A stretch of DNA of 64,000 nucleotides from Pseudomonadaceae bacterium (GTDB taxonomy: Bacteria; Pseudomonadota; Gammaproteobacteria; Pseudomonadales; Azotimanducaceae), in the NCBI GenBank assembly GCA_024743175.1, contig JANSXA010000010.1:1-64000 (forward strand). Direction: 5' to 3'. Numbering within the stretch: position 1 is the first letter of the stretch; each line of letters starts with the position of its first letter. The notes under the pieces are model-generated. The model ran no database searches, was not told the origin of the DNA, and saw nothing but the letters and a program-made list of their open reading frames with translations. Shown piece by piece: positions 15,290 to 26,629 of the stretch. Made by a program: the position numbers and the translations under genes.

Positions 15290-15480
15290 CGTCGGACCGA
15301 AGACGCAATGACTAGGGTATATCGATTTTTACTAGTAACCTTAACGCGCCATCGGTTTAGTTCTAATCATCCGGACCCGTCCGTGCAATAGCGTGGCGGC
15401 GGGGTGTTTTTACACCAGCACATGGTTACACTTTCGTGTCTTGAATAAGTCTTTTTGACGAACAATTGGAGGGGACCCCA

Positions 15481-17757
15481 ATGAAAGTCTTTTACCGCAC
15501 CAGTGTGCTTGCGGCCGCTTTAGTATGGTTAACAGCCTGCTCAGAACCCGCGACCACAGATACACCAACCGCCGCTGAACCAGCGGCATCAGAGGCCACC
15601 TCTACCACCGGCAACCTCGTCGCCAGTCGCAGCGCTGAAATACAGCAGGCTACTGCCAGCATCAACGAGGCCCGCATTGTCAAAGCGGACGCGGCCAACT
15701 GGTTATCTACCGGGCGGACCTATGACGAGCAACGTCACAGCCCGCTGTCGCAGATCAATAAAGACACCGTCGATGACCTCGGCCTGGCCTGGTTCTGGGA
15801 TACCGGTACCAAAAGAGGCCTGGAAGCCACGCCTATTGTTGTGGATGGCGTTATGTTCACCAGCGGCACCTGGTCAGTTGTCTGGGCGCATGACGCCAAG
15901 ACCGGCGAACTACTCTGGGAGTATGACCCCGAAGTACCTAAAGCCTGGGCCCGCTATGCCTGCTGTGATGTGGTCAATCGCGGTGTGGCGGCATGGAAAG
16001 GCAAAATCTATGTTGGCACCCTCGACGGGCGCCTGGTTGCACTGGACGCCGGCACCGGCGTGCCGGTGTGGGATGTTAAAACCATCCTGCCAAACCGTCC
16101 TTATACCATCACCGGCACACCACGCATCGTCAAAGACAAAGTCATCATCGGTAACGGCGGTGCAGAGTACGGCGTGCGCGGTTACGTCACCGCTTACGAT
16201 GCAGAAACCGGTGAACAGGACTGGCGTTTCTATACCGTACCCGGCAATCCCGAAGACGGCTTTGAAACCGAAGATATGGAAATGGCTGCGGCGACCTGGC
16301 GCGGTGGCAAATGGTGGGAAGTGGGCGGCGGCGGTACCGCCTGGGATGCCATGGCTTACGACCCCGAGCTTAACCTGCTCTACATCGGCGTCGGCAACGG
16401 CGCACCGTGGAACCGTTACATCCGCAGCCCCGGCGGCGGTGACAATCTGTTCATCTCCTCCATCGTCGCTTTAAACCCGGATACCGGTCTCAGGGAGTGG
16501 CACTATCAGACCACCCCTGGAGACACCTGGGATTACACCGCCACCCAGCACATGATTCTGGCGGACATCGAAATTCAGGGTGAGCCGCGTAAAGTGATCA
16601 TGCAGGCGCCGAAGAACGGCTTCTTTTACGTGCTGGACCGGACCAACGGCGAGTTTATCTCCGCTGAAGCTTATGTACCGGTCACCTGGGCGACCCATAT
16701 CGATCAGGAAACCGGGCGCCCGGTAGAAAACCCCGAAGCCCATTATGCGAATGAAAAGAAACGCATTCAGCCTGGCCCGCTGGGAGGCCACAACTGGCAT
16801 CCGATGACCTATCACCCGGGTACCGGACTGGTTTATATCCCGGCCCTGGATCTTCGTTTTGACTACGCCCAGGACAATGCCTTCCGACATTCGCCTGAAG
16901 ACTGGAACCTGGGTATCGACTTCCGTGAACAGGCACCGCCGCCCAGCGCCGAAGAAAACATCGACAATCTGCAATCGATCAAAGGCTTCCTGGCCGCATG
17001 GGACCCGGTCACGCAGCGCGAAGTGTGGCGCGTACAACATGCAACCGCCTGGAATGGCGGCCTTCTGTCGACGGCCGGAGATCTGATCTTCCAGGGCCGC
17101 GCAGACGGTCAGTTTGCCGCTTACACCGCAGATACCGGTGAGCTGGTCTGGGAAAGCCCGGTACACGTCGGCATTATCGCGGCACCGGTCAGCTACAGCA
17201 TCGATGGTGAGCAGTACATTACCGTGGTTGCGGGCTGGGGTGGCGCTTACGGCCTGGCTTCAGGTGCGCCGCGACACCGCAACAATGTACTCAGCGAGGG
17301 CCGCATTCTGACCTACAAACTGGGTGGTAAAGCTGAACTGCCAACGCCCGAGGTCACCTATCTGGCTGTGCCCACACCGCCTGCCATGGACTACACCACC
17401 GAACAACAGCAACACGGACAGGACCTGTTCCACCAGTATTGTGCTGTTTGTCATGGTCCGGGTGTTGGCACCGCAGGACCTGTTGCCAACCTGATGTATG
17501 CCGAGCAGGACACGCACAGCATCTGGGATGCAATTGTGGTGGGCGGCGCCTACGCTGACAAAGGCATGCCGAGTTTCAGCCATGCCCTCACGGCTTCCGA
17601 TGCACAGGACATTCGCGCCTATGTCATCGAACGCGCCAAAACTGTTATCGCATTCTGTGAATCATCATTCCGGGAAGAGTATCCGGAACTGTTGGATACG
17701 GCGTGTGAAGTACCCCAGGTTGGGGATGCGGGCGCTATCGCCGGCGGTGGTCAATAG
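15481..17757 (+). CDS. PQQ-dependent quinohemoprotein alcohol dehydrogenase, lipoprotein-type signal
   Basis: 758 residues from the ATG at 15481, preceded by GGAGGGG. The signal peptide ends LVWLTAC, a lipobox that predicts a lipid-anchored protein. The eight-blade PQQ propeller shows the vicinal disulfide Cys161-Cys162 (YACCDVV), several W-motif repeats (DAKTGELLWEY, DAETGEQDW) and the catalytic GDTWDYT (Asp351). The residue two after that Asp is Thr353. Lanthanide-type XoxF enzymes have Asp there, so this one is probably calcium-dependent. A C-terminal cytochrome c domain carries CAVCH (Cys654, Cys657, His658), as in type II alcohol dehydrogenases that pass electrons to a periplasmic cytochrome or azurin. 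No PQQ synthesis genes are in the window. It is divergent from blaI. Confidence 0.93.
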   Translation: MKVFYRTSVLAAALVWLTACSEPATTDTPTAAEPAASEATSTTGNLVASRSAEIQQATASINEARIVKADAANWLSTGRTYDEQRHSPLSQINKDTVDDLGLAWFWDTGTKRGLEATPIVVDGVMFTSGTWSVVWAHDAKTGELLWEYDPEVPKAWARYACCDVVNRGVAAWKGKIYVGTLDGRLVALDAGTGVPVWDVKTILPNRPYTITGTPRIVKDKVIIGNGGAEYGVRGYVTAYDAETGEQDWRFYTVPGNPEDGFETEDMEMAAATWRGGKWWEVGGGGTAWDAMAYDPELNLLYIGVGNGAPWNRYIRSPGGGDNLFISSIVALNPDTGLREWHYQTTPGDTWDYTATQHMILADIEIQGEPRKVIMQAPKNGFFYVLDRTNGEFISAEAYVPVTWATHIDQETGRPVENPEAHYANEKKRIQPGPLGGHNWHPMTYHPGTGLVYIPALDLRFDYAQDNAFRHSPEDWNLGIDFREQAPPPSAEENIDNLQSIKGFLAAWDPVTQREVWRVQHATAWNGGLLSTAGDLIFQGRADGQFAAYTADTGELVWESPVHVGIIAAPVSYSIDGEQYITVVAGWGGAYGLASGAPRHRNNVLSEGRILTYKLGGKAELPTPEVTYLAVPTPPAMDYTTEQQQHGQDLFHQYCAVCHGPGVGTAGPVANLMYAEQDTHSIWDAIVVGGAYADKGMPSFSHALTASDAQDIRAYVIERAKTVIAFCESSFREEYPELLDTACEVPQVGDAGAIAGGGQ

Positions 17758-20961: not shown

Positions 20962-21116
20962 CACTAGTTAAAATAGTCCGTATCTGACCTGACAGGCATT
21001 GTCAGAGTTGATTGCAACATAATCCCAAAGCAGACAGAAGGTCACGTGTTCGGACTTTGATATGATGTTTTCTTGTGTCGACATCTCTCCGGTCCTCTTT
21101 TGTTATTTGTGCGTAT

Positions 21117-21488
21117 TCAGGCAGTTGCTTTCGGATTAACGAAGCGGTTGCTCTGATCTTCCCCGTCACGTGGATCCAGGCATTCAAAGTCTTTTTCGAT
21201 CAGTAGCGCCAGAACACCGCCCGAAAATTCGTTTTCCCCATGAATAGAAACTGCATACTCGTCACCCGCCCACTGTGTTGCCACAGCTCTAGGTAAGCCG
21301 ACCTCGATACACCCCTCATTGAACTCGGCACTCACCTCGTCACTATCGGCGACGATCAATCGGTACCGAAACTCAGCACCTCCACTGAATCGCGTACGAC
21401 AGCTCACGGATCTTCCTCCGCCTATGACTTCCACCTCACTTCGGTCGAGACGTAGCCGGATGCTGTCATCGCTGATTCTGATCTTCAT
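21117..21488 (-). CDS. DUF7009-like small protein
   Basis: 123 residues, predicted mostly beta strands. It begins MKIRISDDSIRLRLDRSEVEVI and ends with an EKDFECLDPRDGEDQSNRFVNP segment that I recall from uncharacterised proteins grouped as DUF7009. There is no signal peptide or membrane segment. It is the third gene of an operon with the acetylene-hydratase-like enzyme (2-base gap to the gene before it). A role in maturation or protection of that enzyme is possible, but the sequence itself shows no function. Confidence 0.75.
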   Translation of the reverse strand: MKIRISDDSIRLRLDRSEVEVIGGGRSVSCRTRFSGGAEFRYRLIVADSDEVSAEFNEGCIEVGLPRAVATQWAGDEYAVSIHGENEFSGGVLALLIEKDFECLDPRDGEDQSNRFVNPKATA

Positions 21489-21490
21489 GT

Positions 21491-21727
21491 TCAGCCAAGT
21501 TCCCCGCGCTGAAATCGATCCAATTCATCAGGGTCAAACCCTTCGTCGTTGTCGATCAGTGGATCGCGAAGAAAATCGTCTTCCGGTTTTGGGGTTGACG
21601 CACGACTGATGATGAAGCGACATATCTTGTCCAACGGACTTTTGTTACGCGAAGATCTACCCGCCATCCACATCTGTATTTTGGCGGCGCGCGCCTGCTT
21701 ACGAATCTCTCTTTCCCGTGAACTCAT
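21491..21727 (-). CDS. Small hypothetical protein between a molybdoenzyme and DUF7009
   Basis: 78 residues: a basic N-terminal half (EREIRKQARAAKIQMW, SRNKSPLDKICRFIISRAS) and an acidic C-terminal half (EDDFLRDPLIDNDEGFDPDELDRFQRGE). I do not recognise it. Its start overlaps the stop of the large enzyme gene by 4 bases and its stop is 2 bases before the DUF7009 gene, so it is translated as part of that operon. This is stronger support for a real gene than its sequence gives. Confidence 0.7.
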   Translation of the reverse strand: MSSREREIRKQARAAKIQMWMAGRSSRNKSPLDKICRFIISRASTPKPEDDFLRDPLIDNDEGFDPDELDRFQRGELG

Positions 21728-24006
21728 TTTTCGAGGACCGGTTCAGCTTGCGCTTCAGCGTCTGTGTTAAGCGGCGCAGACTTCAGGATTCTGCACGCAA
21801 CACCTTTAAGGTGCGGGATGCCTTGCTCGCGGTCCAGATAATCTTCATCGTCCCTGCAGAGCAGTGCGTCAGCGTATTTCAAGGCGCCTGATAACTTACC
21901 CGCGCCTTGCTCCATCTCGGGTTTCCACCACCCATGTGGCACCCTCACCAGATCATCTGGCATGGCATCTTTGATCGCCACCTTCATCGAAACAGCTGCC
22001 AGTTCGTTCTCGACCTCGATCCATTCGTCTTCGTTCAATTCATACTTCGCGGCTGTACCAGGGCTGACGAAGGCAACAGGTTCCGGATGCCGCTTGCGCA
22101 TTTCTTCAATATGGCGATGTCCAGTTTGGAAAAATCCATCTTCACGAACGCCGGTGAACAGTTTGAGCGGGTACTCAGGATCGATTGGCGGGTCTTCCCG
22201 AAAGTAGGGTAATGGATCAAAACCCAGTTCTTCTAAAATGGACGATTTCAGCTCTACTTTGCCGCTCGGTGTGGCGAAACCTGTCTTAAGGTACTTGCGA
22301 AACTCTGGTGTTTTGAAATGTACATCCGTAGTGGCGACAAACTCTTCCCAGCCCATTCCCAGTTTTTCTAAACGATAGTCGTAGAAGTCTTCCAGGGTTT
22401 CCCAGGGAACAACCTCGGGTCGATCCAGCGCACCGGCTAGAAGCTTCCAGAATTCGAATGTGGAACGACACTCACCGGGTGGCTCCATCGATTTTTCGGA
22501 GGTGCGCACTGTCGACATCCAACCCATCGAATCCATCATCATCGGGCGTTCCAACCAACTGTCAGCGGGAAGAACATAGTCCGCAAGCTGCGCCGAGGGT
22601 GTCATGAATTGCTCGTGAGCGACGATGAGGTCCTGATTCATCATCGCCTTGATGATGAGATTCATATTCGCGTAGCTCATCATCGGGTTGTTACCCAGGA
22701 AAAAGAAGGCTTTGACTGGATAGGGTCCCTCACCAGCCATCGCGCGAAACAGTGACGAAGGCGGCGTCATGTAAGAGCCGGTGGCGATATTCGAATACTC
22801 CTGCCCCCACACCTTCTTCATAGGGCCACAAAACTTCTCCTGAGCGCGATAAGTAAACGCCGGGTGCTGATCTGAGCCGAGTTGCTTGGATTTCTGCTCA
22901 TCCGCAAGCACATGGTGCATTTCGATTTCTGATTCGTTGATGATGTCGGGGTTGAAACCCTGTAAGTGTTCACCACCCGGTACGTCTACGTACCCGCAAA
23001 TCGATCTCAAGATGGACTGCAGCCGAATACCAGATGTTGAATTGCGCTGCATGTCTGTAATCGGAGTCCACGGAATGATGGCAGGGCCTTCGGTTGCATA
23101 CATGCGCGCTGCTTTTGCAATCATCTCCGGGTCACATCCAGTCAGTTTGGCAACCCGCTCGAGTGGATACTCATTCACTCGCTCCTTGAGTTCCTCAAAC
23201 CCTATTGTCCAGTTGGCGACGAAGTCTTTGTCATACAGCTCTTCATCGATGATGACTTTTAACCAACCGAACATCATTGCGGCATCACTACCGACTTTCA
23301 GCGGCAGCCAGATGTCTGCGCGCTCTGCGCTCGAACTGCGACGCGGGTCGGTCACGATGAGCTTTGCGCCTCTTGCCTGTGCCTGGCGAATCCAGGTGTA
23401 CATCGGGGTCCAACTGTGACGACGTGGGTTATGACCCATCAAAACGATACACTTGGTATTCTGAAAGTCGCCGATTGGGAACCAGCCGTAGGTGAATTTG
23501 TTCACGGCGCCAGTATTCCCCGCACACAGCGCAACCCCACTCGTCCAGTTTGGCGAGCCGACGTGGTTCATGAGTCGACGGCCCAGCCCATGATCCGTCC
23601 CAGTATTCCACTGACTGGTAGACACGGCCCAGGCTTCAGGTCCGTGCTCGGCAATAGTTGCCTTTAGTCGCGCGCCGATATCCTCAAACGCATCTTCCCA
23701 GGAGACTCTCTCCCATTGCCCTGAGCCGCGCTCTCCAACTCGTTTCATCGGGTGCATGATTCGGTTCGGGTTTGCGAGCCCTTTGGGAGAGATAATCCCT
23801 TTCATGCAGATGTTGTCACGAAAAATTGGATTATCAGAAGAGCGTACGCGTACGACTCGACCATTCTTAACCTCGCTGACAACCGAACACTGGATGTCGC
23901 AGGCTGTACAAATTGTACGTTTCGCGGTGACGCCAGGCCGTAGCTTTCGCTCTTTGTACTTGGCATCAACCACTTCTTGTGGATCAAACGGAACCGGTGC
24001 AGGCAT
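21724..24006 (-). CDS. Acetylene-hydratase-like molybdopterin/tungstopterin enzyme
   Basis: 760 residues from the ATG at 24006, preceded by AAAGGA at 7 bases; the GTG at 24024 is unlikely. It is a DMSO-reductase superfamily protein without a Tat signal, so cytoplasmic. The 4Fe-4S site is Cys33, Cys36, Cys40 and Cys67, with Asp37 directly after the second Cys (CTACDIQC). The metal ligand should be Cys161 (ALCAGNT). Compared with my recollection of Pelobacter acetylene hydratase, Asp13 (Asp37), Ile14 (Ile38), Cys141 (Cys161), Trp179 (Trp199), Trp293 (Trp313) and Trp472 (Trp484) correspond at matching spacing, while Ile113 and Ile142 become Trp133 and Ala162. No redox partner gene is adjacent, which suits a non-redox hydratase. 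The exact substrate is uncertain. Confidence 0.85.
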   Translation of the reverse strand: MPAPVPFDPQEVVDAKYKERKLRPGVTAKRTICTACDIQCSVVSEVKNGRVVRVRSSDNPIFRDNICMKGIISPKGLANPNRIMHPMKRVGERGSGQWERVSWEDAFEDIGARLKATIAEHGPEAWAVSTSQWNTGTDHGLGRRLMNHVGSPNWTSGVALCAGNTGAVNKFTYGWFPIGDFQNTKCIVLMGHNPRRHSWTPMYTWIRQAQARGAKLIVTDPRRSSSAERADIWLPLKVGSDAAMMFGWLKVIIDEELYDKDFVANWTIGFEELKERVNEYPLERVAKLTGCDPEMIAKAARMYATEGPAIIPWTPITDMQRNSTSGIRLQSILRSICGYVDVPGGEHLQGFNPDIINESEIEMHHVLADEQKSKQLGSDQHPAFTYRAQEKFCGPMKKVWGQEYSNIATGSYMTPPSSLFRAMAGEGPYPVKAFFFLGNNPMMSYANMNLIIKAMMNQDLIVAHEQFMTPSAQLADYVLPADSWLERPMMMDSMGWMSTVRTSEKSMEPPGECRSTFEFWKLLAGALDRPEVVPWETLEDFYDYRLEKLGMGWEEFVATTDVHFKTPEFRKYLKTGFATPSGKVELKSSILEELGFDPLPYFREDPPIDPEYPLKLFTGVREDGFFQTGHRHIEEMRKRHPEPVAFVSPGTAAKYELNEDEWIEVENELAAVSMKVAIKDAMPDDLVRVPHGWWKPEMEQGAGKLSGALKYADALLCRDDEDYLDREQGIPHLKGVACRILKSAPLNTDAEAQAEPVLEK

Positions 24007-24027
24007 TGGTCTTTCCTTTGTCACGGA

Positions 24028-24070
24028 AATCAGATTATATGTACACTCATTCAGTTTTTATATTCGGATT
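24028..24070. promoter_or_regulatory. Dyad and -10 element between the hydratase-like gene and tetR
   Basis: Arms AATCAGATTATA (24028-24039) and TATATTCGGATT (24059-24070) form an imperfect 43-base dyad (AATCnGAnTATA on both strands). On the minus strand 24039-24034 reads TATAAT, a perfect -10 box placed about 28-33 bases before the enzyme's start codon. A TetR-type repressor encoded divergently could act here. The dyad is longer than a usual TetR site, so this is tentative. Confidence 0.45.
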
Positions 24071-24111
24071 AGCCCTTGGCACCAGTACAACAAGCTAACG
24101 CATTGTATTCA

Positions 24112-24702
24112 ATGAGAAAAACACCCAAACAGGCGAGGTCAAAGGCGACCGTGGAGGCCATTATTTCGGCGGGTATTCAGGTTTTGCTGACCAATGGTTA
24201 TGACAAAGCAAGTACTTATAAGATTGCCGAGATTGCGGATGTCAGCATTGGCTCGCTTTATGAATACTTCCCAGGGAAGGAAGCAATCTACGCAGAGGTC
24301 CAGCGAAGAAACGACCAAAACTTGTTCGATCTCGTCATGGCCCAACCCGAGCCTAAGTCGGTGAAAGAGCTTATCCGATCGCATACCTCCGCGAACATCG
24401 AGTTCGTTCGCCAGAATCTGGAGCTGCATGCTGCGCTCATCAACGATGTACCCCAGTTTGCTGTGGGACGGCAAGAACTCCCCGTGTACAGGGACTACCT
24501 TCCATGGGTTACCAATTTCCTACATCAACATCAGGAAGAACTGCGGCAAGATATCAACACCAGTCGAATCGTTGATTTCGCACTTCGTGCGACACGTTCA
24601 ACCATTGACAACTACGTCCTCTATACACCAGAGCAGTTGAGTGGCCCATTGGTCGAAGAGCTGCTCATCGATCTAGCTGAACGGTTTTTGCTACGAACCT
24701 AA
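24112..24702 (+). CDS. TetR/AcrR family transcriptional regulator
   Basis: 196 residues from the ATG of MRKTPKQARSKATVEAI; a TTG at 24076 is less likely. The helix-turn-helix is typical: TVEAIISAGIQVLLTNGYDKASTYKIAEIADVSIGSLYEYFPGKEAIY. The C-terminal half would bind a small ligand and dimerise. It is divergent from the acetylene-hydratase-like operon with 105 bases between start codons, the usual arrangement for a TetR protein controlling its neighbour in response to the substrate or product. Confidence 0.93.
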   Translation: MRKTPKQARSKATVEAIISAGIQVLLTNGYDKASTYKIAEIADVSIGSLYEYFPGKEAIYAEVQRRNDQNLFDLVMAQPEPKSVKELIRSHTSANIEFVRQNLELHAALINDVPQFAVGRQELPVYRDYLPWVTNFLHQHQEELRQDINTSRIVDFALRATRSTIDNYVLYTPEQLSGPLVEELLIDLAERFLLRT

Positions 24703-25034
24703 AAAGTTTCTGTCTACTGCATGACGCACTGAACAACCGCCTAAAGGTGCGGCATTCTTTCATCTAATTGGGTTGAGATGTCCGAATGGGAATGTCTGCA
24801 ACTGTCCTTTCTTTCTAGCGGCTTGAGCGTCTGCTTCAGAGGAACCTAATTTCCGAAACTGGCCCGAAGGTGGAAATAAGCGAACGTCTGTTCCGGATCG
24901 TTTTGAGACCTCCGAGGCAGCTCAGCGAACTTCAGCTTTCACGCTTCGCGTGAAGTAGGTCACGAAACACTTCAGTTTCTGCAAAGCCGACGTTCACCAA
25001 CCTATATGTAACGCGTACTTTCGGCCAACAACGG
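24703..25034. repeat. Intergenic region with degenerate repeat-like segments
   Basis: About 330 bases without a gene. Motifs such as GAATGTCTGC (near 24800) and CGAACGTCTG (24881-24890) recur; the latter is repeated exactly at 26569-26578. TTCACGC-TTC-GCGTGAA (24938-24954) is a perfect hairpin without a T-run. CCGC...GCGG at about 24738-24753 is a weak terminator candidate for tetR. The look is of diverged dispersed intergenic repeats. Confidence 0.35.
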
Positions 25035-25040
25035 TCATTC
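25018..25040 (-). repeat. Repeat copy at the end of the DUF7336-like gene
   Basis: On the minus strand the segment begins GAATGAC and ends TTGGCCGAAAG. The same two blocks occur at 25686-25715. The TGA inside GAATGAC is the stop codon of the gene in both places. Confidence 0.45.
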
Positions 25041-25241
25041 GCCGAACCCTTCCTGCCACCAAGCTTCGTTCAGTCTGTATAGGTCGATCGAAAACCCGTT
25101 GGGGTAGTCGCGGAAACCGGAAGAATCTCGCAACTCTGCTACTGCGCCTTCCGCCCGTTCTTTCGAATCAAAAACGCCGATGAATTTCACGTCTTCGTGA
25201 GTATCATCCTCGTAGGTGTGCTGAACTACATAAACATCCAT
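25035..25241 (-). CDS. DUF7336-like small protein
   Basis: 68 residues. MDVYVVQHTYEDDTHEDVKFIGVF, SKERAEGAVAELRDSSGFRDYPNGF and the terminal EAWWQEGFGE match a widespread small family that I recall as DUF7336, of unknown function. It is cytoplasmic with an alpha/beta pattern. Its stop codon lies in a repeat-like GAATGAC segment shared with the YcxB-like gene end further upstream. It is 13 bases downstream of the lipoprotein gene. Confidence 0.75.
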   Translation of the reverse strand: MDVYVVQHTYEDDTHEDVKFIGVFDSKERAEGAVAELRDSSGFRDYPNGFSIDLYRLNEAWWQEGFGE

Positions 25242-25254
25242 CGGTGAAATCTTG

Positions 25255-25680
25255 CTACAACCGTCTACTACTAAGCCCGCTGTAGGGCAGCCTGTATATG
25301 CAATGCCCCGTATCGCGGTTACAAAGAAATAGCCAAGTTAGCCCGGCTGTATAACTGAAGCCTTTGTATCCGCTTTTCTGCATCTTTACGATGTAGTCAG
25401 CATGATCCACGTATGGCTCCTCAAGGGCGGAGAGCCGCCTAACTAAAGTGTCGACATCTTCAACAGCAACCATAAACTCCCCTTCTGAAGTGTTGGTATC
25501 GAGATCATTCGAGGTACGAATTGAGACTGTCGATTCGGGGAGAATATCGGGAAGCCAACCCCTTCTAAACAGGGTATCGTCGCGAGCCTCGTCCAAAGTT
25601 TCGTACTTGCTCGTTACGACATCACAGCCGGCTGCAAGCGAAAGAAAACCTCCAATAACTATTAGTGTAATTACCCTCAT
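25255..25680 (-). CDS. Hypothetical lipoprotein
   Basis: 141 residues from the ATG at 25680, preceded by AAAGGAAAG, a good ribosome-binding site; the longer frame to 25848 overlaps the next gene. The N-terminus MRVITLIVIGGFLSLAAGC is a lipoprotein signal with Cys19 as the likely lipidated residue. The mature part has no motif I can name (TLDEARDDTLFRRGWLPDILPE, then a beta-rich region with Cys in FLCNRDTGHCIYRL). It probably sits on a membrane facing the periplasm. It lies among other small uncharacterised genes of the same strand. Confidence 0.7.
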   Translation of the reverse strand: MRVITLIVIGGFLSLAAGCDVVTSKYETLDEARDDTLFRRGWLPDILPESTVSIRTSNDLDTNTSEGEFMVAVEDVDTLVRRLSALEEPYVDHADYIVKMQKSGYKGFSYTAGLTWLFLCNRDTGHCIYRLPYSGLSSRRL

Positions 25681-25685
25681 CTTTC

Positions 25686-25715
25686 CTTTCGGCCAATAGC
25701 CGCCATCCGTCATTC
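25686..25715 (-). repeat. Repeat copy at the end of the YcxB-like gene
   Basis: Minus-strand reading starts GAATGAC and ends TTGGCCGAAAG, as in the copy at 25018-25040, with a longer middle. It covers the stop codon of the YcxB-like gene and abuts the ribosome-binding site of the lipoprotein gene. Confidence 0.45.
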
Positions 25716-26201
25716 GATGACCTTCAGCCCCCACTCGTCGAATTTGGACTTTACGCGGCCCACATCCGTTAAGCTGAGTGTTGTTGTAGGAATCGTGAAA
25801 AACTGAGAGCGTGAGAGAAAGACCAGCCAGAAATCTGCATAAACCCAAACTTCTGTGATGAGCGTTTTTCTTACTTCGCCGCTTCCCGCATCAGATTTGA
25901 TGTTCAGATGCTCGTCGTGCAGTTCGAGCATCGCACTGGGGTCTCGCATGTTCCGAAACTTCTGCATCGAGTTTCGGTAATGAACCAAATACACCGCAAC
26001 AACAACGATGATCGCGAGAGCTATCATGGTGCCCAATAACCCAACCATCCAGGTGCGATCTCCGCTCCATATCAGGTAGGCAAACAGGACAACCATTAGC
26101 ATTAAGGCAACGGGCAGCCCAACGCCAACGGTTCGCTTCCAGAACTCGAAAACAGCACGTTTTACTAATTCTTCAGTGTACTCAATTCTTATCGGAGTCA
26201 T
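25710..26201 (-). CDS. YcxB-like membrane protein
   Basis: 163 residues from the ATG of MTPIRIEYTEELVKRAVF; a TTG at 26216 would add five. Two adjacent membrane helices (about 28-48 and 54-76) are followed by a soluble C-terminal domain. A segment like LLDEHLNIKSDAGSGEVRKTLITEVWVYADFWLVFLSRSQFFTIP is typical of the YcxB-like domain: a strand-rich module ending in a 'facilitating' FFTIP box. The function is unknown. It starts 16 bases after the end of the small membrane-anchored gene upstream. Confidence 0.75.
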   Translation of the reverse strand: MTPIRIEYTEELVKRAVFEFWKRTVGVGLPVALMLMVVLFAYLIWSGDRTWMVGLLGTMIALAIIVVVAVYLVHYRNSMQKFRNMRDPSAMLELHDEHLNIKSDAGSGEVRKTLITEVWVYADFWLVFLSRSQFFTIPTTTLSLTDVGRVKSKFDEWGLKVIE

Positions 26202-26217
26202 GCGTTTGATTAACAAT

Positions 26218-26499
26218 CTACGGTGAGTGAAGCACTTGCTTACCGACTACCTTTCCATCTTTCATCACGATCAGATAAACGGTTGGGATCGGCCAACGAT
26301 AGTAACTCAACTCATCAACGCTTTGATTATAGAAACCAGGACTATCTAACTTCTGTGGCTCGCCCATTGTCTCGAAGACACTGGCTTCGCTTGCACCTAA
26401 TTGAACGTTTTCGAAAGCGCGTGGTTGTTCTGTGGCATACAAATATAGCCCACCCGTGACGAATCCGAGCACTCCAAGCGATATGAGAAATGTGCGCAT
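26218..26499 (-). CDS. Small exported or membrane-anchored hypothetical protein
   Basis: 93 residues. A hydrophobic N-terminus (MRTFLISLGVLGFVTGGLYLYA) is followed by NVQLGASEASVFETMGEPQKLDSPGFYNQSVDELSYYRWPIPTVYLIVMKDGKVVGK. The 'G.s...V...MG.P' pattern followed by a YYRW strand recalls the small BamE/SmpA-like fold. That is only a resemblance. It is the first of four small same-strand genes downstream of polA's end. Confidence 0.65.
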   Translation of the reverse strand: MRTFLISLGVLGFVTGGLYLYATEQPRAFENVQLGASEASVFETMGEPQKLDSPGFYNQSVDELSYYRWPIPTVYLIVMKDGKVVGKQVLHSP

Positions 26500-26629
26500 C
26501 CGCTGGATTATGAAGCCAGCGCGACTGACTGCAATGGGTCGATAGCGGCGGTAGATACTACATGCCGCCGAACGTCTGCTTTAGCGGGTATCTGACGCTG
26601 TCTGTCAGATCAGATGCTACCCACTACAA
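26500..26629. repeat. Short repeat-like region beyond the polA stop
   Basis: It contains CGAACGTCTG (26569-26578), shared with 24881-24890, and a nested hairpin GGGTA-TCTGAC...GTCAGA...TACCC (26586-26622) without a T-run. A GCAATGGGTCGATAGCGG stretch at 26531-26548 also looks like intergenic repeat families of marine gammaproteobacteria. Confidence 0.35.

Follow-up and report, generated by a model that had tools for sequence, protein, structure and literature searches.

The window, a stretch of 64,000 nucleotides analyzed here as a whole, carries a 5.67-kb segment between engB and polA (positions 20962 to 26629). This segment holds a DUF7009 gene, a gene resembling that of Pelobacter acetylene hydratase (AH), a TetR-family regulator gene, and three small genes (25255 to 26499). 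The AH-like gene lies at 21724 to 24006 on the minus strand as a single open frame of 760 codons plus stop, with its ATG at 24006 and its stop codon ending at 21724. The plus-strand frame over the same interval is interrupted by stops, and an alternative GTG start upstream at 24024 would extend the product to 766 amino acids. An initial annotation had already called a 760-residue protein here, without giving the strand. Its product is assigned as an AH-like bis-MGD, [4Fe-4S] enzyme on the basis of the open reading frame, Pfam domains, PDB match, tree, and structural model.

Of 18 further genomes of the genus that were searched, 17 yielded engB (18 loci, one genome having two), and in all 18 loci polA lies within ~350 bases of it, compared to 5.67 kb in the window; none of the same-genus loci examined has the segment at this site. 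The AH-like gene, inserted between engB and polA, was likely acquired. The host looked like an aerobe to the initial annotation, and aerobic cytochrome oxidase subunits are indeed encoded in the window. Some 4 kb past the inserted segment, at 15466 to 17757, lies a gene for a PQQ-dependent dehydrogenase with a C-terminal cytochrome domain.

Regulator and DUF7009 genes beside the AH-like gene

The TetR-family gene (24112 to 24702, plus strand; Pfam TetR_N) is divergent from the AH-like gene, and its product may regulate that gene; the start given was chosen within a longer frame from 24076. A counterpart with 61.5% identity adjoins the AH-like gene of genome G200, and none was detected at 30 other loci searched at E ≤ 1e-4. 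Some other members carry, adjacent to the AH-like gene, a regulator of the MarR, MerR, or HxlR type (Pfam on L132, L115, L119, and L180). The DNA separating the AH-like gene from tetR was searched for a palindromic operator and yielded nothing beyond 6-base repeats.

The next gene downstream encodes a 123-amino-acid DUF7009 protein (21117 to 21488, minus strand; PF22668, 101.6 bits). DUF7009 takes this position with the same orientation in 9 of 29 loci of the subclade to which the window protein belongs (see below) and in none of three other Asp-type loci; it is present in 33 of 117 relatives' genomes. By a motif-based survey of 30 DUF7009 loci, its neighbors were AH-like in 9 (window included), MobA-like in 10, and bacterioferritin-like in 12, with Pfam confirming MobA-like genes in L149, L171, and L179 and ferritin in L171. 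L157 and L174 combine a MobA-like gene, DUF7009, and another MopB gene, and the second DUF7009 gene of the window's own genome is flanked by mobA-like and bacterioferritin-like genes. Since AH-like, MobA-like, and MopB genes are among its neighbors, we infer that DUF7009 is a candidate factor for MGD supply or insertion. The family is not mentioned in the open-access literature searched. Further examples of DUF7009 occur at L179 (9256 to 9630) and at loci L149 to L178.

Relationship to acetylene hydratase and distribution of relatives

The AH-like protein contains the Pfam domains Molybdop_Fe4S4, Molybdopterin, and Molydop_binding. Its top PDB sequence match is Pelobacter AH (2E7Z, 669 bits), followed by PsrA with 204 bits. 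The match to 2E7Z covers residues 29 to 736 at 45% identity (E = 7.8e-200) and exceeds chance by far; over the first ~310 residues, which had been described as aligning almost without gaps, it runs from residue 29 to ~339 with two gaps of 3 and 1 residues. All NCBIfam models listed for the protein scored well under their cutoffs, including the PhsA equivalog model (263.9 bits against a cutoff of 694). An AlphaFold model (mean pLDDT 90.5, pTM 0.91), for which 32 aligned proteins served as input, matches 2E7Z at 1.6 Å (TM 0.91/0.95), so that the structural comparison proposed at the outset came out in favor of AH, whereas the other 49 of the 50 fold matches listed deviate by at least 4.7 Å. PsrA and PhsA share the MopB fold and the Cys ligand with the window protein but differ from it in score and in fold (5.9 Å). 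By our own reading, the N terminus has no twin-arginine-like signal, which is consistent with a cytosolic protein.

Trees were built with IQ-TREE on 37 rows and by a quick method on 57 of the 109 aligned rows, with PsrA as the sole outgroup row; L089, L098, L099, and L102 of the 28 subclade rows lay outside both trees and were placed by identity, and one aligned row (L103) is a fragment. Both trees agree that the window protein falls with AH in a clade marked by Asp13 (AH numbering), with a support of 99/100 on 37 rows and 99 on 57 rows. The expected placement on the AH branch, away from polysulfide and thiosulfate reductases, is thus borne out, and score, tree, and fold rule out the latter identity. 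Within the clade, the 37-row tree set the window subclade (100/100) apart from AH, paired AH with L008 (99/98), put L104, a protein of Rhodococcus opacus DSM 44186, outermost, and did not resolve the placement of L136. The subclade, which is mostly proteobacterial, has three branches: a Gly14 group (100/100), a Phe462/Trp472 group (100/100), and the window branch (100/99), where the window protein pairs with the G200 protein (100/100). Most same-genus members fall in the Phe462/Trp472 group and the window protein in another branch.

Asp13 was present in 31 of the 109 aligned rows, namely, the 28 of the window subclade (window included), AH, L104, and L008. It co-occurs with Trp179, which all 31 of these rows carry, while the other 78 rows have neither Asp13 nor an aligned Trp179. 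Rows L015 and L020, presumed members of the catechol dehydroxylase kind that stood in here for the characterized enzymes, have His at position 13, have no aligned Trp179, and lie outside the Asp13 clade. His in place of Asp13 (CRMCHGGC) also marks a large AH-related group (L016, L019, L023, L025, L047, and many more rows) that occurs in Desulfobacterota, Rhodospirillales, Actinomycetota, and other MAGs. In six further AH relatives (L043, L058, L063, L070, L076, and L079) the second of the cluster cysteines has either moved or given way to another residue (CxxxDHGGC-like, e.g., CARMDHGGC), and their [4Fe-4S] site may therefore be unusual.

In its own genome, the AH-like protein was the only strong match. 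A search of 58 genomes of relatives at E ≤ 1e-100 gave matches in 20, own genome included; all of them belong to the genus, 19 of whose 36 remaining genomes had a match. With the threshold set to E ≤ 1e-130, matches came from 3 of 369 genomes in a class sample (the own genome, G200 at 84%, and G095 at 75%, the last two from other families) and from 3 of 398 in a phylum sample (the own genome, G452 at 69%, and G663 with two copies at 59% and 53%). Because the nearest relatives of the window protein sit in other families, horizontal transfer is likely. The window's own family has a further ortholog in G1481, which shares 85% identity with its G200 counterpart across 404 residues. In G663, a 7-Mb genome, the two AH-like genes (C141, 136968 to 149115; L130 and L131) lie ~10 kb apart and represent the Gly14 and Ile14 branches; an aldehyde dehydrogenase gene is directly upstream of one of them.

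Beyond these samples, a search with the R. opacus protein at 1e-130 in the phylum to which G428 (Adlercreutzia) belongs gave matches in 4 of 346 genomes, with 2 of the 5 matches (L135 and L136) being Asp type. A search with AH in the phylum of the Desulfuromonas MAG G805 gave matches in 8 of 297 genomes, with none of the 9 matches being Asp type. A plasmid search at E ≤ 1e-100 returned one record, that of R. opacus DSM 44186 (41% identity). Five viral stretches fit a pattern, and none was confirmed. Among the matches listed in a contig scan, Gammaproteobacteria and Burkholderiales MAGs appeared at 63, 58, and 53% identity before values fell to 38%; of 550 confirmed stretches 80 were retained, and matching required exact peptide patterns, so the scan yields no frequencies.

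Active-site residues compared with those of acetylene hydratase

AH numbering was anchored on the 2E7Z sequence and checked at Cys9, Cys12, Cys16, Cys46, Cys141, Asp13, Lys48, Trp179, and Trp293. The residues that define the Asp13 clade are all present in the window protein (C33, C36, D37, C40, C67, and C161). Codons 33 to 40 (23887 to 23910, minus strand, like all codons below) encode CTACDIQC with the cluster cysteines 33, 36, and 40; as the initial annotation had proposed, Asp37-Ile38 in this motif align with AH Asp13-Ile14, their function being assigned by analogy to AH, in which Asp13 is essential (2025 review, PMC12096430). Codons 67 to 69 (23800 to 23808) span Cys67 (AH Cys46) to Lys69 (AH Lys48). 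Cys161, the metal ligand (AH Cys141), and Ala162 at the position of AH Ile142 are encoded at 23521 to 23526. Trp199 (AH Trp179; 23410 to 23412) and Trp313 (AH Trp293; 23068 to 23070) follow Cys161 at +38 and +152, spacings that are equal to those in AH, as had been claimed. Trp133 (23608 to 23610) replaces AH Ile113.

Codons 484 to 496 (22519 to 22557) call for a correction. Trp484 had been equated with AH Trp472; however, AH carries Trp at both 462 and 472, and in the alignment Trp484 (DSWLERP) pairs with 462 and Met494 with 472, while Trp496, two residues further, corresponds to AH474. The hydrophobic ring of AH, which we take to consist of Ile14, Ile113, Ile142, Trp179, Trp293, and Trp472, is thus kept at three of six positions (Ile14, Trp179, and Trp293). 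The previously noted exchanges to Trp133 and Ala162 hold, and the count of differences rises from two to three because AH Trp472 aligns with Met494. Published sources place Asp13, Cys141, Trp179, and Trp472, together with an unnumbered pocket isoleucine, near the AH site.

All 28 subclade rows have Asp13, Lys48, Cys141, Trp179, and Trp293; Cys16 is found in 27, Ile14 in 25, Trp113 in 26, Ala142 in 27, and Trp at AH474 in 25. At position 472 the rows show Trp (16), Phe (5), Tyr (3), Met (the window alone), or no residue (3). The most divergent rows are the Gly14 rows L007, L095, and L109, with Ala/Ala, Trp/Leu, and Gly/Ala at 113/142 and Tyr at 140; L135, added later, has Trp113 and Ala142. Outside the subclade, residues at 113/142/472 are Ile/Ile/Trp in AH, Ile/Leu/Trp in L104, Tyr/Met/Ser in L136, and Leu/Met/Phe in L008. 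Compared to its nearest ortholog, the AH-like gene is saturated at synonymous sites with 0.11 nonsynonymous differences, which argues for strong constraint. That Met494 recurs in no other row of the 28-row subclade would fit a protein that had lost catalysis and turned to binding or sensing; this is very improbable given the strong constraint and the fully retained cofactor site. Altogether, the window protein is a genuine AH-clade enzyme under constraint, and its pocket is altered across the whole subclade.

Metal, chemistry, and substrate

A ModA protein is encoded in the own genome, where we found no TupA-like protein; TupA would, we assume, belong to the PBP_like_2 family, and by our reading the sole protein of that family adjoins Pst- and PhoR-like genes. 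Molybdenum is therefore likelier than tungsten as the metal of the AH-like enzyme.

We lean, at somewhat below even confidence, toward a cytosolic, probably single-subunit, regulated non-redox hydratase of the AH clade, encoded by an acquired gene and acting on a substrate other than acetylene. Asp37 would activate water next to the Cys161-bound metal, the activated water would add onto an unsaturated small molecule by AH-type non-redox chemistry, and the rebuilt ring (Trp133, Ala162, and Met494, with Trp496 near) would fit a non-acetylene substrate. With its own TetR-type regulator, the acquired gene may serve the catabolism or detoxification of the substrate compound in an aerobe. Judged from comparison with AH, the chemistry is probably AH-like. 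Several points count against this reading. All wet-lab facts come from one distant enzyme, AH (45% identity), and the model is weaker in the blocks 131 to 140 (pLDDT 70), which holds Trp133, and 491 to 500 (pLDDT 77), which holds Met494 and Trp496. Besides DUF7009 and the two-genome TetR pair, no recurring adjacent catabolic gene pointing to a pathway was seen across the family, in a comparison that used mechanical gene calls (which did not delimit the L006 gene) and in which several recurrences stem from near-identical neighborhoods.

Most MopB enzymes are redox enzymes, and the window protein could be one of them, such as one that reduces or dehydroxylates an organic compound and uses its Asp in another role. 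The retained [4Fe-4S] cysteines and Lys48 would suit such an enzyme. The catechol dehydroxylases Dadh, Cadh, and Hcdh of Eggerthella are, in the available text of PMC7028382, described as the closest enzymes to AH and are its next characterized relatives; that Asp-less relatives of AH include these redox enzymes counts against the hydratase reading. Nonetheless, Asp13 and Trp179 are absent from rows beyond the Asp13 clade, AH is the closest characterized relative in both sequence and fold, and none of the 29 subclade loci has a ferredoxin-like motif within 3.5 kb (a crude motif, with some flanks short). We regard a redox function as unlikely. An Fe-S protein gene nearby is a reported trait of AH in the available text of PMC7858054; the ferredoxin-like motif that would indicate one is missing from all 29 of these loci within the same limits. 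Near other Asp13 proteins the motif was present at L104 and L136 and absent at L008, which weakens the ferredoxin argument.

It is more unlikely still that the protein is a plain acetylene hydratase of an aerobe, in which Trp133 fills the space left by Ala162 and acetylene remains the substrate. The retained catalytic Asp, Lys, and Cys and two ring Trp residues speak for it, as does the bracketing of the subclade in the tree by AH and the possible aerobic AH of R. opacus. L104, encoded on the DSM 44186 plasmid, resembles the window protein (41% identity) in Asp13, Trp179, Trp293, and Trp at AH474; it differs in its AH-like Ile113, Leu142, and Trp472, in its AurF-like and ferredoxin neighbors, and in its outermost position. 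The record of DSM 44186 names Tuebingen, and we take the strain to belong to the isolates on acetylene described by Rosner et al. 1997, in which case L104 is probably the aerobic AH; it is a candidate for the aerobes' molybdenum AH. If so, the ring change in the window protein is more telling, because L104 keeps an AH-like ring. According to the available text of PMC7858054, R. opacus is an aerobic acetylenotroph, Mo-dependent AH exists in aerobic acetylene users, the R. opacus AH was not recognized by antibodies against the Pelobacter enzyme, and no AH of an aerobe has been characterized. On the mobilizable plasmid (L104, 12025 to 16076), the AurF-like protein and ferredoxin FdxA genes adjoin the AH-like gene among transposase and integrase genes.

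Compared to AH, the window protein shares the cluster cysteines, Asp13, Ile14, Lys48, Cys141, Trp179, and Trp293, yet it has Trp, Ala, and Met at 113, 142, and 472, belongs to another subclade, and occurs in an aerobe-type host with no ferredoxin-like neighbor. We take the AH pocket isoleucine that has been exchanged for Ala to be Ile142. A review reports that this Ile-to-Ala exchange markedly lowered activity, which makes acetylene a doubtful substrate for a subclade with Ala at 142. The three ring differences, this Ala included, tell against a plain acetylene hydratase, as does the lack of a ferredoxin-like neighbor, unlike at L104 and L136. Moreover, the exchange of bulk between 113 and 142 is not strictly coupled, as seen from Ala/Ala in L007 and Gly/Ala in L109. 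The initial annotation had proposed a different or larger alkyne; the ring change at 113 and 142, common to the whole subclade, argues for a changed substrate, and acetylene is probably not the substrate as judged from these residues, whereas a larger alkyne is one option among others. Propyne is an inhibitor of AH rather than a substrate, and calculations ascribe this in part to metal-alkyne electronics (available text of PMC6308299), so that an altered pocket alone need not admit larger alkynes. Since AH also leaves acetylene derivatives and nitriles unconverted (review; available text of PMC6308299), new hydration substrates are hard to name.

More broadly, and at less than even odds, the subclade may be a second enzyme type within the AH clade. 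Its members would use molybdenum to hydrate, without redox chemistry, a substituted alkyne or some other unsaturated compound enclosed by an aromatic cage. The gene would have spread by horizontal transfer, as a single regulated unit, mainly among aerobic Proteobacteria, and in part of the family DUF7009 would help to load the cofactor. The open-access literature on AH searched gave no description of this subclade. AH is the only known non-redox Mo/W enzyme as described in a 2025 review, which lists similar proteins of the subfamily as uncharacterized (PMC12096430). Such genes in metagenomes should be read with caution, as they are not proof of acetylene use. A subclade in which acid and metal ligand are retained but the pocket is swapped offers a natural test of what determines substrate and chemistry, and it could extend enzymatic water addition past acetylene.
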